A stretch of 64,000 nt of DNA from Deltaproteobacteria bacterium (GTDB lineage: Bacteria; Desulfobacterota; GWC2-55-46; DRQE01). The notes below the pieces were generated by a model. That model made no database searches. It saw nothing but the letters and a program-made list of their open reading frames with translations, and was not told the DNA's origin. Each line of letters begins with the position of its first letter. The stretch's first letter is position 1. Location of the stretch: NCBI GenBank assembly GCA_015492245.1, contig WGFM01000012.1:1-64000 (forward strand). Reading direction: 5' to 3'. Both the position numbers and the translations under genes were made by a program. Below are positions 28,679 to 61,741 of the stretch, piece after piece.

Positions 28679-28729
28679 AGAACCTTTATCTCTGGCATAC
28701 AGACTTTTTAAAAAGGAGGAGCTTTGAAG

Positions 28730-29761
28730 GTGAACGATACATTCCTGAGGGCCTGCAGACGAGAGCCCGTAGACTACACCCCTGTGTGGCTCATGCGTCA
28801 GGCAGGCAGATACATGGAAGAATACATGGAGATAAGGAGGCGTTATTCCTTCCTCGAGATGTGCAGAACCCCTGAGATAGCCTGCAAGGTTACACTGCAA
28901 CCTGTCGAGAGGTTCGAGCTCGATGCTGCCATAATATTTGCCGATATACTTCTACCCCTTGAGGGCATGGGCATAAGGCTCGAGTTTGCAAAGAACGAGG
29001 GGCCTGTAATCCTGAACCCTGTAAGGGAAGAGAAGGATGTGAACTCTCTTCGCATAATAGAGCCCAGGGAGGATGTTCCATATCTGCTTGAGGCCATAAG
29101 GCTCGTCAAGAAGGAGCTTTCGGGCAGGATTCCCCTCATAGGGTTTTCTGCTGCCCCCTTTACACTTGCAAGTTACATAATAGAGGGTGGGGGGTCGAAG
29201 AACTATCTCCATGCAAAGAGGCTCATGTACACAGAATCTGGCCTCTGGTGCAGGCTCATGGAGAGTATAACCTCGACCCTTACAACCTATGTGAATGCCC
29301 AGATAGACGCAGGTGCGGATGCCATACAGATATTCGACAGCTGGGCAGGGGCATTGAGCCCCCAGGACTATGCAAGCTATGTTCAGCCCCACACCACAAG
29401 GCTCATAGAGAACATAAGCGGCAGGGTGCCTGTCATAAACTTTTCCACCGGCACTTCTGCCTACATAGAGACCATAAGCCAGTGCGGGGGAGATGTGGTT
29501 GGTGTGGACTGGCGGATAAGACTCGATGTGGCATGGGAGAGGATAGACCACCACAGGGCCATCCAGGGCAATCTTGACCCCACAGTGCTCTTTGCAACCC
29601 CTGAGGAAATCAAAAGACAGGTTGAGACCATCCTCCATATGGCAGGTGGTAGAGCCGGCCACATATTCAACCTCGGGCACGGCATAATCGTTGGAACCCC
29701 GGTGGATAATGTTAGAGCCCTTGTGGACTATGTCCATGAGCTGAGCTCACAGAGGAGATGA
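28730..29761 (+). CDS. hemE: uroporphyrinogen decarboxylase
   Basis: 343 residues. The signature PVWLMRQAGRYMEEY lies near residue 20, with IIFADILLPLEGMG and GHGIIVGTPVDNV further on. It converts uroporphyrinogen III to coproporphyrinogen III. GTG 28730 is chosen because AGGAGG ends 9 nt upstream; an in-frame TTG at 28724 is only 3 nt from it. It is the first gene of hemE-hemH-PPO with overlapping junctions, so heme formation from uroporphyrinogen is mostly encoded here (the coproporphyrinogen oxidase is elsewhere). Confidence 0.95.
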   Translation: MNDTFLRACRREPVDYTPVWLMRQAGRYMEEYMEIRRRYSFLEMCRTPEIACKVTLQPVERFELDAAIIFADILLPLEGMGIRLEFAKNEGPVILNPVREEKDVNSLRIIEPREDVPYLLEAIRLVKKELSGRIPLIGFSAAPFTLASYIIEGGGSKNYLHAKRLMYTESGLWCRLMESITSTLTTYVNAQIDAGADAIQIFDSWAGALSPQDYASYVQPHTTRLIENISGRVPVINFSTGTSAYIETISQCGGDVVGVDWRIRLDVAWERIDHHRAIQGNLDPTVLFATPEEIKRQVETILHMAGGRAGHIFNLGHGIIVGTPVDNVRALVDYVHELSSQRR

Positions 29762-30675
29762 TGGGCAATAAGGCGGTCCTTATACTCGCCTTCGGTGGGC
29801 CCCGCTCCCTCGATGAGGTCGAGCCCTTCATAAAAAAGGTCTTCAGGGGAAGAGAGGTGCCAGAGGCCCTGATAGAAGGGGCAAGAAAGAGGTATGCCGC
29901 AATAGGCGGTGGCTCCCCACTTGGTGCCATAACGGCGAAGCAGGCAGAGCTCATGGAAGAGGGGCTGAAGAAGAGGGGTGAGGATGTAAGGGTATACACC
30001 GCGATGCTCAACTGGTACCCCTCCATAGAGGAGACCATCGAGAGGATTGCCCGGAGCGGTATAGAGAGAGTATACGCCCTGGTCATGTCCTCCCATACCT
30101 CGCCAGTTGCAACGGGTGGATACAGGATGGCCGTGGAGGAGGCCATAAGAAGGCTCGATACAGCCATGGATGTAGTATTCGTTGAGTGCTGGCACACACA
30201 CCCGCTCTACATAGAGGCAATGAAGGAGAAGATAGAAGACGCCCTCGATGGCGTATCGGAGGATGAAAAGACCCTTCTTGTATTCACGGCCCACAGCCTT
30301 CCGGAAGAGGTTGCAAAGGGAGACCCCTATGTGAGAAGACTCAGGGAGACTGTGGAGGCACTTTCTTCGAGGATGAGGCTGCCTCCTGCAAGGCTTGCGT
30401 TCCAGAGCAGGGGGCAACGGGGCAGATGGCTTGGCCCCCAGGCAGAAGAGGTCATAGAGGAGGCGGCAGGGGAGGGGATAGAGCGGGTGTGTCTTGTGCC
30501 CCTGGGGTTTGTGGCAGACCATCTGGAGACCCTGTACGATATAGATATAGCACTGAAAGGGCTTGCAGAGTCCCTGGGGATGAGGTTCGTGAGGGCGGCC
30601 TCGCTCAATACATCCGATAGGTTCATCGAGGCGGTTGTGGATGTAATATGGAGAAAGATAAGAATATCCTCATAG
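29758..30675 (+). CDS. hemH: ferrochelatase (protoporphyrin or coproporphyrin)
   Basis: 305 residues. TAHSLPEEVAKGDPY near residue 177 has the catalytic His, and AFQSRGQRGRWLGPQ is the conserved family block; SSHTSPVATGGYR matches the SxTS region. It inserts Fe2+ into a porphyrin. Its start overlaps the hemE stop (ATGATG at 29758). Pairing with a HemY/HemG-type oxidase leaves open whether the protoporphyrin or the coproporphyrin-dependent route is used. Confidence 0.93.
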   Translation: MMGNKAVLILAFGGPRSLDEVEPFIKKVFRGREVPEALIEGARKRYAAIGGGSPLGAITAKQAELMEEGLKKRGEDVRVYTAMLNWYPSIEETIERIARSGIERVYALVMSSHTSPVATGGYRMAVEEAIRRLDTAMDVVFVECWHTHPLYIEAMKEKIEDALDGVSEDEKTLLVFTAHSLPEEVAKGDPYVRRLRETVEALSSRMRLPPARLAFQSRGQRGRWLGPQAEEVIEEAAGEGIERVCLVPLGFVADHLETLYDIDIALKGLAESLGMRFVRAASLNTSDRFIEAVVDVIWRKIRISS

Positions 30676-32078
30676 TAGGCGGTGGCATAGCAGGGCTTTC
30701 CACGGCATATTATCTTAAAAAGGGGCTCGATGAAAGGGCTAAGGGGTCCTGCACCATAACACTGGTTGAGAAGGGCTCAAGGCTTGGTGGCAATATTGTA
30801 ACCGAAAGGCTCGATGGTTTCCTCGTAGAGGGTGGGCCAGACTGTTTCCTCAGCGAGAAGCCCTGGGCACTGGCACTCTGTAGAGAGCTCGGCCTTTCAG
30901 AGGAACTACTGCCCACGAAGAAGCCATCTGGCACCACCTATGTGTTTTCAGAAGGTAGCCTCCATCCCCTGCCCGAGGGCATAATCCTCATGGTTCCAAC
31001 CAGAATACTTCCACTTCTGAGTGATACACTCATCTCCTGGAGGGGCAAGCTCCGTATGGCCATGGAGCCCTTCATTCCAAGAAGAAGAGGGGCAGGCGAT
31101 GAAAGCCTTGCAGACTTTGTGAGAAGAAGGCTTGGCGAGGAAGTGCTCCAGAAGATAGCACAGCCCCTTGTTGCAGGCATACACGCAGGAGACCCTGAAA
31201 CGATGAGTGTGAGGGCAAGTTTTCCCAAGTTCGTCGAGATGGAGGAACAATACGGTAGCCTGGTGCGGGGTATGCTCTACAGGATGAGGGCCTTGAGGGG
31301 TATGGCAAAAAAGGGTGGTGAAGAGCGGCTTACGATGTTCTTAAGCCTCAAGAGCGGTATGCAGCTACTTGTGGATACCCTTGCAGAAAGGATAAAGGAT
31401 GGGGTTACAATCCTCAAGGACAGGGGTATGAAGAGGATAGAGAGACCGGGCAACCATTATATGGCCGAGACAGACAGGGAAGAGACAATCAGGGCAGATG
31501 CCCTCGTGGTGGCAACACCGGCCTATGTTGCGGCCTCACTCGTTGAGGCACTCGATAGAGAGCTTTCCAGCCTTCTGCTTACCATACCCTATGTCTCCAC
31601 AGCCACAGTATCCCTGGGTTATGAGAGGGAAGGGCTATCCCATCCAATGGATGGGTTTGGCTTTGTGGTGCCAGAGGTGGAGGGAAGGGCAATCATGGCG
31701 GCCACATGGACATCCTCGAAGTGGGAGGCAAGGGCCCCCGAGGGCAGGGCCCTTATAAGGTGCTTCGTCGGTGGGGCAAAGAGGGGAGAACTGGTATCGA
31801 TGGATGATGGCCAGCTTGCAGGGCTTGTCAAAAAGGACCTCAGGGATATTATGGGTATCCAGACCCCACCCCTCTTTGTCAGGATATACCGCTGGCACAG
31901 GGCGATGCCACAGTATACCATAGGCCATATGGAACGGGTGAAGGGTATAGAAGAGCTGTGTGAAAGACACAGTGGACTCTTCCTTACAGGCAGTGCCTAC
32001 CACGGGATAGGTATAAGCGATACGGTAAGAGAGGCAGAGACCACGGCAGAGAGGGTTGTTACAACCCTTTTTGGATAA
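30648..32078 (+). CDS. hemY: FAD-dependent protoporphyrinogen/coproporphyrinogen oxidase (HemY type)
   Basis: 476 residues. It opens with the FAD-binding ILIVGGGIAGLSTAYYLKKG, has EGGPDCFLSEKPWALAL near residue 63 and the C-terminal GSAYHGIGISDTVREAE typical of PPO. It oxidises protoporphyrinogen IX (or coproporphyrinogen III) with oxygen as acceptor in the classical enzyme, fitting a cell that meets oxygen. It overlaps hemH by 28 nt. The next gene is convergent, 22 nt away. It is also annotated hemG in some genomes. Confidence 0.92.
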   Translation: MEKDKNILIVGGGIAGLSTAYYLKKGLDERAKGSCTITLVEKGSRLGGNIVTERLDGFLVEGGPDCFLSEKPWALALCRELGLSEELLPTKKPSGTTYVFSEGSLHPLPEGIILMVPTRILPLLSDTLISWRGKLRMAMEPFIPRRRGAGDESLADFVRRRLGEEVLQKIAQPLVAGIHAGDPETMSVRASFPKFVEMEEQYGSLVRGMLYRMRALRGMAKKGGEERLTMFLSLKSGMQLLVDTLAERIKDGVTILKDRGMKRIERPGNHYMAETDREETIRADALVVATPAYVAASLVEALDRELSSLLLTIPYVSTATVSLGYEREGLSHPMDGFGFVVPEVEGRAIMAATWTSSKWEARAPEGRALIRCFVGGAKRGELVSMDDGQLAGLVKKDLRDIMGIQTPPLFVRIYRWHRAMPQYTIGHMERVKGIEELCERHSGLFLTGSAYHGIGISDTVREAETTAERVVTTLFG

Positions 32079-32100: not shown

Positions 32101-33564
32101 TTATATGAACGGGCCCTTCCTGTGGCACTCTATGCATATGTCCCGCTCGAAGTCCATCCTGGCAAAGAAAGGTTTGTTGCTGCCATGTGGATAATGGCAT
32201 GTAACACAGGTTATTATGCCCCCCTCGAGGGTTGGTAGATTCCTGGGTACCACGGTGCTGGGAGTGCTGGCACTTATCCCCACGGGATGAGAGACACTCT
32301 GGTTATGACACTCCACGCATACATCTATCTGGGTTGTCTTTGGCGGCAGGAACCCATCACCGTGCGTCTTGTCATCAGCGCTCGCCTTCAGTGTTACTGT
32401 TATTCTTGCTGGTCTGTCGGTCCTTACAAGCAGGAAGGGAATCCCGTTTATGCTTGTAACCTCTGCCTTCTCTATGGAAGGAAAACCCCGTGTTATGGAT
32501 GATGTCCCCTGTGGAGAATAGCGTGGCTCTCTTGTGTCGAGCAAGAGGTCTGAAGACCTTATCATGTTGCCAAACACATCTTTCAGTATTATACGATAAT
32601 GGTAGCGCCTGCCCTGTTTGAGACCCCTTAGAGTAACCCGGTGCTCCCTGGAGTAGGCGTACTCCCAGGGGGTTACATTTATGTAATCTCTGGTCTCACC
32701 GTATTCCACCGCAGCCCTGGTGAACTCGTTGGTCAGCCAGCTTATGGTTGCCGTTGAGAATATACCGTGTCTTACCTCTTCCACTTTTATGTTCTGTATC
32801 GAGAGTGTTGAAGGGGACTCGGTCTCAAGTGGTGTTATCCCTTCAGGCTCGAGGGTTAGTTTCACAGGGGCAGACCTGCGAGAGGTTTTGTCCCATGCAA
32901 TCACCTTTATGGTGTATCTCTTGTTCCTCTCGGCAATATCACCAAGTGGTACGAGTGCCTCGGTCGTGTATTCTTTCGAGATGGCCTGCTCCAGGAGCCT
33001 GGAGTCCCAGTTCTTCTGCTCTATTATATGACATGTTGCACACTTCTCATCTGTTACAACACTGTGTCTGTATTTTACGGTTATGGCATTACGGTGTACA
33101 TCCTGATGGCAGGAGACACAGGTGCCGGGTTCTGTGGCCGTGCCAGGGGCTGGTGGCAAGAAGAGAAGGGTGGCGATTATCAGTAAAAGGGTGTAAAGCA
33201 GGGGGAAGGCCCTGATGGAGCCTCTCATGGTGTAGGGCATCTTCTCTACCATTGCTGGTATGGCCTGGTATGTGGGCGCAAGCCCGAATCCCCCCTGGCA
33301 GATAAGCTCTTCCAGGGCACAGTCCTTCGAGTATTCCACCACAATGGTCCTTCCGCAGAGGCCGGGCCATTCATGGTGTAGTCTTTCAAGAAAGGAGACA
33401 AGCCTCTTTCTTTCCGCCACAGCTACCACAGTGGTATCATAATCTGCAATATTTTCAAGGGCAGCTTCTGTATCAGCATGTTCAACCGTGTGGCCCTGTT
33501 TTGACAGTATCTCTTCCAGGTGTTCGGGGCTTGAAGAGTCATCTGTTACAATAAGTATACGCAC
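32101..33564 (-). CDS. receiver-like domain / membrane helix / Fn3 / pentaheme cytochrome fusion
   Basis: 487 residues with an unusual order. Residues 1-110 look like a degenerate response-regulator receiver (MRILIVTDDSSSPEHLEEIL; the usual phospho-acceptor Asp and Lys pattern is not clear). A membrane helix at about 118-137 ends in a signal-like site. The exported part has five CxxCH heme sites (C149, C175, C416, C453, C477), two before and three after a fibronectin-III-like region (ATISWLTNEFTRAAVEYGE, then HRVTLRGLKQGRRYHYRI). An electron-transfer role with a cytoplasmic sensory or docking part is inferred. GTG 33564 has AAGGAGGG upstream; a longer TTG/ATG frame from 33624 is less likely. 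Confidence 0.82.
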   Translation of the reverse strand: MRILIVTDDSSSPEHLEEILSKQGHTVEHADTEAALENIADYDTTVVAVAERKRLVSFLERLHHEWPGLCGRTIVVEYSKDCALEELICQGGFGLAPTYQAIPAMVEKMPYTMRGSIRAFPLLYTLLLIIATLLFLPPAPGTATEPGTCVSCHQDVHRNAITVKYRHSVVTDEKCATCHIIEQKNWDSRLLEQAISKEYTTEALVPLGDIAERNKRYTIKVIAWDKTSRRSAPVKLTLEPEGITPLETESPSTLSIQNIKVEEVRHGIFSTATISWLTNEFTRAAVEYGETRDYINVTPWEYAYSREHRVTLRGLKQGRRYHYRIILKDVFGNMIRSSDLLLDTREPRYSPQGTSSITRGFPSIEKAEVTSINGIPFLLVRTDRPARITVTLKASADDKTHGDGFLPPKTTQIDVCVECHNQSVSHPVGISASTPSTVVPRNLPTLEGGIITCVTCHYPHGSNKPFFARMDFERDICIECHRKGPFI

Positions 33565-33645: not shown

Positions 33646-34179
33646 TCAGTCTCCAAGGTCTTCGAGGGTCTTTCTATATACATCAAGGTCTTTATCTGTA
33701 AACAGGACGAACCTCACAAGCTCGAACCAGTCTTCTTCTTTTATGAAGTCCATTACGGTCTCGAGGGCTATGCGGGATGCCTCTTCTATGGGGTATCCAT
33801 AGGCACCTGTGCTCAGGGATGGAAAGGCTATGGATTTGCACTCCTTCTCTTTTGCCACCTCAAGGCTGCGCCTGTAGGCACTCCTGAGAAGCTCTGGTTC
33901 ACCACTGTTGCCACCCCTGTAGACAGGCCCCACAGCATGGATTACATGTTTTGCCCCGAGCCTTCCCCCACCTGTTGCAACGGCATTGCCTGTGGGGCAT
34001 CCACCAATCTTTCGGCACTCTTCCATTATCGATGGTCCCCCTCGTCTGTGGATGGCACCATCCACCCCGCCACCACCTGCAAGTCTCGAGTTGGCGGCAT
34101 TGACGATGGCATCCACACTTTCCTCTGTTATGTCTCCCCTGGTAAGGGAGAGGGTTGTCTTCCCTATCTTCATTTCCAT
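33646..34179 (-). CDS. macrodomain protein (O-acetyl-ADP-ribose deacetylase type)
   Basis: 177 residues. GDITEESVDAIVNAANSRLA, GGGGVDGAIHRRGG and the loop FPSLSTGAYGYPIEEA are the ADP-ribose-binding signatures of the MacroD/YmdB class, and the substrate-binding Asn/Asp pattern is intact. It removes ADP-ribose or acetyl groups from ADP-ribosylated products. It is preceded by a promoter whose -10 box is 7 nt from the ATG, with no ribosome site, so a leaderless mRNA is predicted. No ADP-ribosyltransferase partner is adjacent. Confidence 0.92.
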   Translation of the reverse strand: MEMKIGKTTLSLTRGDITEESVDAIVNAANSRLAGGGGVDGAIHRRGGPSIMEECRKIGGCPTGNAVATGGGRLGAKHVIHAVGPVYRGGNSGEPELLRSAYRRSLEVAKEKECKSIAFPSLSTGAYGYPIEEASRIALETVMDFIKEEDWFELVRFVLFTDKDLDVYRKTLEDLGD

Positions 34180-60559: not shown

Positions 60560-61741
60560 CTACCTCGGGATGGCCCGGCCTGCATCCTGTGGTTCCCTTG
60601 TGAGCACTCCTTCAGGTGGGGCACCTTTGTGGTTGTGGCATCTCTTGCAGTCTGCATAGGTGAATGAGACCTTGCCGTGGCACTTCCCGCAGCTTTTGCC
60701 CTCGCTCATCTCGCGCATTCGTATCTTGTTGGCACCCAGCTCTGGTTTGAACAGCGCAGGATGACAGAGGCTGCACTTGACCCATGTGGTGTGGATCCTG
60801 TGGTCGAATATTACGCTCTTCATGAACTTGCTGGTTGATCGGAAGAATATCCTGTTGTCCCTTGTCTCCTCCTTCTCACCATTTTCTGTTCCAAGGCTAC
60901 TTGCGGGCTCGAAGGCATCCGTGTTCTCAAGGGCTATCCAGTCTATGAAGCCGAACCTGTCGAGGGGATACCTGCCCCCAGGGAGTTTTTCAACATCCCA
61001 GTATGCCCCCACACGCTCTGCCATCTCCGAAAGCTCCTGCGGGTCTATAAGGGATAGGTCCACAAGGGGTGTTGCCTCTGGTTTGCCCAGGATATGACAT
61101 CTTTCACATTCCTTCTCTGATGTGGCATCGAACGAGAGCTTGCCATTGTGGCATACACCACAGGACTTTCCTTCCTCTATGGACTTCTGGTTTACAGGGT
61201 TTGTTCCACGAGCCATCCTGAATATGTCCTCATGACACACCTTGCACCTGAAAAATAGCCTGTGAACCCAGTGGGGATATACCACAGGGCTTAGCCCCTT
61301 CTCCTGCATCTCGTCAAAGTGGGTGAGCATTACGAAGTTTCCAGGAACTCGTTCAACCTCCTGTATGCCTCTTATGAAGGACTTCCTCTCTTTCTCCTTC
61401 TCTATCTCTTCTTTCTGCAGTCTTGCTATCTCGTCCACAAGCTCTTTGCTTCCCTTGTTCCAGTGCATGTGCATCGTTGCCATTGCACTGGCAAGATCAA
61501 GAAGCTCTATCTTTTCTCTGAAGCTGAGGCCGGGCCGATGTGCCTCTTCCATGAGTTTTCTTATCTCTTGCTCCAGAATAGCCTTGTTTCTCTTTACCAG
61601 TATCACCTGTGCCTGGAACTTGTTGTTCCTGTAGTTGTCTATGAACTGCTCCCGGAAGGACTTTTTCGCACTGCTCATGGGGGGAATGATGAGGATGGCA
61701 AATAGAACCAGTAACAGATATGAGACGGACCTTTTTGCCAT
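60560..61741 (-). CDS. exported hexaheme cytochrome c with two c7-like triheme modules
   Basis: 393 residues. A signal peptide (SVSYLLLVLFAILIIPPMSS) and a long helical region (about 30-150) precede six CxxCH sites in two groups of three: C166, C194, C212 and C323, C351, C365. Each group has the order FFRCKVCH / GKSCGVCH / CERCH or KCSLCH / GKSCGKCH / CKRCH, the triheme cytochrome c7 pattern. It is periplasmic. AAGGAGC precedes ATG 61741. It probably moves electrons between membrane and terminal reductases; the partner is unknown. Confidence 0.88.
   Translation of the reverse strand: MAKRSVSYLLLVLFAILIIPPMSSAKKSFREQFIDNYRNNKFQAQVILVKRNKAILEQEIRKLMEEAHRPGLSFREKIELLDLASAMATMHMHWNKGSKELVDEIARLQKEEIEKEKERKSFIRGIQEVERVPGNFVMLTHFDEMQEKGLSPVVYPHWVHRLFFRCKVCHEDIFRMARGTNPVNQKSIEEGKSCGVCHNGKLSFDATSEKECERCHILGKPEATPLVDLSLIDPQELSEMAERVGAYWDVEKLPGGRYPLDRFGFIDWIALENTDAFEPASSLGTENGEKEETRDNRIFFRSTSKFMKSVIFDHRIHTTWVKCSLCHPALFKPELGANKIRMREMSEGKSCGKCHGKVSFTYADCKRCHNHKGAPPEGVLTREPQDAGRAIPR

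Follow-up and report, generated by a model that had tools for sequence, protein, structure and literature searches.

A single gene in the window, the 64,000-nucleotide stretch of a deltaproteobacterial contig (WGFM01000012.1) analysed here, joins a receiver-derived domain, a hydrophobic helix and a pentaheme-Fn3 part. Heme is attached to c-type cytochromes outside the cytoplasmic membrane, and thus the part with the CxxCH motifs is taken to be exported and the N-terminal domain to be cytoplasmic. Our tentative reading, to which we give a probability of roughly 0.4, is that the fused protein is a membrane-bound signalling cytochrome. The pentaheme-Fn3 part would report or relay the redox state of a periplasmic or extracellular electron-transfer chain, while the cytoplasmic domain would connect the cytochrome to an internal partner. 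A homologue that can be aligned over its full length is encoded in an independently assembled genome of another genus (G007; locus L004, same contig as WGEY01000069.1). The features of the gene and its upstream neighbor are as follows.

32101..33564, minus strand: whole fused gene, 487 aa, GTG start, with a full-length relative in G007 at 39% identity
33570..33575, minus strand: Shine-Dalgarno-like AGGAGG, 5 nt before the GTG, read from the sequence
33235..33564, minus strand: receiver-like (pseudo-receiver) domain, about residues 1-110, from hhalign, a single-sequence AlphaFold2 model and the G007 homologue
33151..33213, minus strand: hydrophobic helix, residues 118-138, then PAPGTA (signal-peptidase-like), from hydropathy
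33106..33120, minus strand: CxxCH 1, residues 149-153, invariant in 44 relatives
33028..33042, minus strand: CxxCH 2, residues 175-179, invariant in 44 relatives
32530..32805, minus strand: Fn3 domain, about residues 254-345, containing the invariant His308, from Pfam, AlphaFold and PDB matches
32305..32319, minus strand: CxxCH 3, residues 416-420, invariant in 44 relatives
32194..32208, minus strand: CxxCH 4, residues 453-457, invariant in 44 relatives
32122..32136, minus strand: CxxCH 5, residues 477-481, invariant in 44 relatives
33646..34179, minus strand: macrodomain gene (PF01661, 1.8e-45), upstream of the fused gene, marking the orthologous locus

The initial annotation, made from this DNA alone, had proposed one gene with one membrane helix and an exported part carrying two CxxCH motifs, an Fn3-like region and three more CxxCH motifs. 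All of these points held up. The frame of 32101-33564 has no internal stop and is a single ORF of 487 residues, residues 118-138 (hydropathy 2.25 over 19 residues) form the sole such hydrophobic segment and have basic residues on their N-terminal side, and the order of heme motifs and Fn3 region was confirmed. A gene start near residue 110 was also considered, and none of the in-frame ATGs around residues 109-113 is preceded by a ribosome site as good as the AGGAGG of the GTG. A reading as two genes was ruled out by the unbroken frame, the strong upstream start and the same fusion in G007.

The N-terminal domain of the window protein falls short of the Pfam receiver model. Its match to PF00072 (Response_reg) had an E-value of 0.12 and 13.0 bits, under the curated cut-off of 30.2, and in a search of the whole genome with Response_reg it scored 11 bits, whereas the 41 receivers passing the cut-off scored 36-116. 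The top Pfam match, TusA (E=0.016), was set aside as a chance match of 30 residues. Since BLASTP returned no alignment between this domain and the G007 receiver, profiles were used instead. Aligned by hhalign, as one sequence, to a profile built from 30 receivers of this genome, the domain reached a probability of 87% and a score of 35; 200 shuffles scored at most 26.9, and it ranked first among 141 fragments of the proteins encoded in the window, with the next at 26.8. The receiver signal of the window N-terminus is beyond chance. AlphaFold2 run without an alignment produced strand-helix-strand-helix-strand-helix-strand, the receiver order, at a low-confidence mean pLDDT of 56; the order covers the initial four strands and three helices, and residues 68-112 are modelled poorly. 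The PDB matches of this model include many receivers or receiver-like domains (E 0.004-0.05) mixed with other Rossmann-like folds, none of them at E<=0.001.

At the same position, the G007 homologue (P0002) carries a full PF00072 domain well over the cut-off (E=1.5e-20, 73.8 bits), in which the acidic pair (DD), the phosphoacceptor Asp58, and T and K (K109) are kept. When the window protein is aligned to it, Asp58 becomes Ala48 and Lys109 falls in a gap; the acidic pair is still present as Asp8 and Asp9. Because receiver ancestry is combined with the loss of Asp and Lys, the window N-terminus is, as far as its sequence tells, best called a pseudo-receiver. The initial annotation had seen here a degenerate receiver-like domain and had allowed for an unrelated fold; the profile comparison and the canonical receiver in G007 favor the former, and the N-terminus looks receiver-derived. 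Without a phosphosite, ordinary two-component control of the window copy is not expected. Phosphorylation at the canonical site would not occur in the window form, and it is possible that the G007 homologue is phosphorylated.

The exported part is predicted to be a multiheme c-type cytochrome of the paired CXXCH type, with scores over the cut-offs of both PF09699 (53.3 bits vs. 20.6) and TIGR01905 (43.5 vs. 25.2). It scored 38.7, 29.8 and 22.2 bits with the NCBIfam models for the DmsE, GSU2203 and OmcA/MtrC decaheme cytochromes, for which the cut-offs are 192.2, 325 and 209.3. No match to PAS, Cache or MCP was found in the window protein, which places it outside the c-heme chemoreceptor sensors. 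The five CxxCH motifs are invariant across the 44 relatives, as are His167, His308, His426 and His460 (44/44), and His401 is kept in 36 of the 44. Five additional histidines for five hemes would fit bis-His ligation with one ligand in the Fn3 domain. The Pfam matches in the Fn3 region, PF16656 (5.8e-6) and PF00041 (0.01), are both under the curated cut-off, and the fold itself is supported by AlphaFold, with pLDDT above 90 over approximately residues 200-350 and PDB matches that are Fn3 domains. As His308 lies inside this domain, the Fn3 domain is probably a component of the heme package rather than a mere spacer.

The fusion is rare, and the cytochrome family without a receiver is common. Among all 63 genomes searched in the class, two carry it, the window's own and G007. 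No further fusion turned up in 395 genomes drawn from the phylum, nor in 25 loci taken from genome contigs, one of which is G007 itself. The macrodomain gene adjoins the cytochrome gene in the window, G007, G003 and G009. The cytochromes of G003 and G009 at this locus and of G002 in the same clade have no receiver, and thus the cytochrome works without it. In the maximum likelihood tree of the exported part, the orthologues branch as (G009,(G002,(window,(G007,G003)))), with support of 99/80 for grouping G003 with G007. Placing the two fused proteins as sisters is not rejected (p-AU 0.25), so a single fusion event, with or without loss in G003, is possible from these sequences. Neither the macrodomain gene nor the fused gene was found in G001, which is of the same genus and 92% complete. 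In G008, the macrodomain contig ends ~190 bp past the gene, and that stretch contains no readable receiver start; in G006, a WrbA-like gene follows the macrodomain gene in the cytochrome's place.

Other members of the family are associated with signalling parts of different kinds. Among the 37 relatives outside the receiver subclade and the FecR-fused group, 34 have a HAMP-protein gene immediately downstream on the same strand at 8-230 bp, and of the three that lack it, L038 is truncated by a contig end. The copies of the HAMP protein that were read have ~160-203 residues and two apparent membrane helices, with no kinase or chemoreceptor output. An N-terminal FecR fusion is present in eight relatives (L003:835-2478, L024, L025, L055-L057, L059, L060), three of which were confirmed with PF04773 (FecR). 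In G048 (L045:6212-10895), genes for a GAF histidine kinase and an NtrC-type regulator come after the cytochrome gene, all on one strand. Neither the HAMP neighbor gene nor FecR occurs in the receiver-bearing subclade, and there is no kinase among the neighbors of the two fused genes. The window genome also has a HAMP-linked paralogue, located beyond the window at C12:73172-74146 and clustered with 26-heme and 15-heme cytochromes. This arrangement of genes suggests a redox module that has been wired repeatedly to differing signalling parts. The HAMP partner, the FecR fusions and the receiver-less orthologues together make a signalling role plausible.

The conserved cytochrome-HAMP pair (L033:9026-10751 and 33 other loci) occurs in this class, in Nitrospirota and in other deltaproteobacterial MAGs, and one Nitrospirota MAG has the cytochrome in two tandem copies (L070:6025-8429). 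Besides the 26-heme and 15-heme cytochromes and the HAMP protein, the surrounding cluster in the window genome (L033:7424-18653; G000 C12, ~71-83 kb, past the end of the window) encodes a receiver-HD-domain regulator and, as read by eye, PPIase-like and CsgG-like proteins. G049, G051 and G057 have clusters of a similar kind.

The initial annotation had put forward redox sensing across the membrane, or docking of a cytochrome to an internal partner, and both are putative roles of the fused protein. If it is a signalling cytochrome, the two forms may operate differently. For the G007 form, control of the cytochrome could come from a histidine kinase acting on the receiver by phosphorylation; alternatively, the cytochrome could set the availability of the receiver. 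In the window form, where the phosphosite is gone, the domain may be a phosphorylation-independent docking or dimerisation module. The receiver would substitute for the HAMP partner gene seen beside most relatives. The signalling reading is favored by the single ORF with its strong start, the full-length relative with a canonical receiver, the receiver signal of the window domain above shuffles and all other fragments, the five CxxCH motifs with their five extra histidines, and the links to HAMP, FecR and a kinase in the family. On the other side are the receiver-less orthologues, the unproven sisterhood of the two fused proteins, the lack of an adjacent kinase, the signal-peptidase-like site and the poorly modelled residues 68-112.

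The signal-peptidase-like site underlies the strongest alternative, in which the helix is an internal signal peptide cut by signal peptidase I, leaving a soluble periplasmic cytochrome and a membrane-tailed cytoplasmic receiver. All that the fusion would then secure is co-expression and the placement of a single-domain receiver at the membrane. In each fused protein the helix is followed by such a site, so the halves may part after export: the hydrophobic cores of ~15 residues are followed by PAPGTA-T in the window protein and SGTAA-Y in G007, candidate sites with fitting small residues at -3 and -1, and ordinary cleavable signal peptides are found in many family members. However, cleaved signal peptides are not usually preceded by more than 100 cytoplasmic residues, and the helix of G009 is not followed by a site of this kind, that of G003 only by a weak one. 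We regard cleavage as rather unlikely.

More doubtful is the possibility that the receiver is a neutral passenger, the leftover of a chance fusion, now degenerating in the lineage of the window and missing from G003, with the protein acting as a membrane-anchored electron carrier. The rarity of the fusion, the receiver-less G003 orthologue, the lost phosphosite and Lys and a second half of the domain that is hardly recognisable all fit a passenger. Yet the two genera, though far diverged, both keep an unbroken frame, the composition by codon position in the domain is coding-like, and G007 retains the complete set of receiver catalytic residues. We hold this explanation to be improbable. That there is no receiver fusion at all, the N-terminal part being either a gene of its own upstream or a fold unrelated to receivers, is very improbable and largely refuted: the empty BLASTP comparison, the Pfam score under the cut-off and the mixed fold matches would allow it, but they are countered by the lack of a stop or a good internal start between the domains, the same-frame fusion in an independent assembly, the profile comparison and the canonical homologue.

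Within the signalling cytochrome reading, a more specific version is that a single polypeptide spanning the membrane lets a two-component receiver directly control a multiheme electron-transfer protein, or be directly controlled by it. This is unlikely on present evidence. Were it true, electron flow outside the cell would be tuned by phosphorylation on the inside, or the reverse, with gene expression unchanged. The receivers known so far act for the most part on DNA, on nucleotide second messengers or on other partners in the cytoplasm. A receiver on a membrane-bound multiheme cytochrome would directly wire two-component signalling to extracellular or periplasmic electron transfer. In a family with a HAMP partner, FecR and receiver fusions, sensing by the cell of the redox state of an outer chain becomes testable in a defined protein pair.

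The architecture is built from known parts, and the combination of receiver and pentaheme cytochrome is without a described precedent in the openly licensed literature that was searched, where no receiver fused to a multiheme cytochrome is described; the initial annotation likewise knew of no such architecture. Nearest in logic are the Geobacter chemoreceptors GSU0582 and GSU0935 (c-heme PAS), which also combine an extracytoplasmic covalent heme, a membrane helix and a cytoplasmic signalling part (PMC3460858, PMC8396549). They differ in having one heme, a PAS fold and an MCP output (PMC3460858, PMC8396549), whereas the window protein has five predicted hemes, Fn3 and an N-terminal receiver. 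For the N-terminal domain, the nearest counterparts are pseudo-receivers or aspartate-less receivers, which are likewise receiver-derived and without the phosphoacceptor Asp (PMC12632262, PMC4395418). Unlike those, the window domain has an exported multiheme cytochrome as its output; the main text of PMC12632262 mentions neither a cytochrome nor a transmembrane part, and in PMC4395418 cytochrome appears only as a size marker. The exported part itself belongs with the paired-CXXCH cytochromes (PF09699, TIGR01905), both of whose cut-offs it passes, and has distant local similarity to the DmsE/MtrC decaheme families while keeping its own Fn3-pentaheme layout. The receiver-less Fn3-pentaheme cytochromes of the same class, Nitrospirota and other deltaproteobacterial MAGs are homologous over the whole exported part but have an ordinary signal peptide or a short N-tail, with a HAMP gene next to them or FecR fused.

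Three consecutive genes of the window (28724-32078, plus strand), read by eye as uroporphyrinogen decarboxylase, ferrochelatase and protoporphyrinogen oxidase, run convergently towards the cytochrome gene. On the side where the window has these heme-biosynthesis genes, G007, G003, G009 and G002 have ABC transporter genes. A further window ORF with six CxxCH motifs, separate from the fused gene, lies at 60560-61741 on the minus strand.
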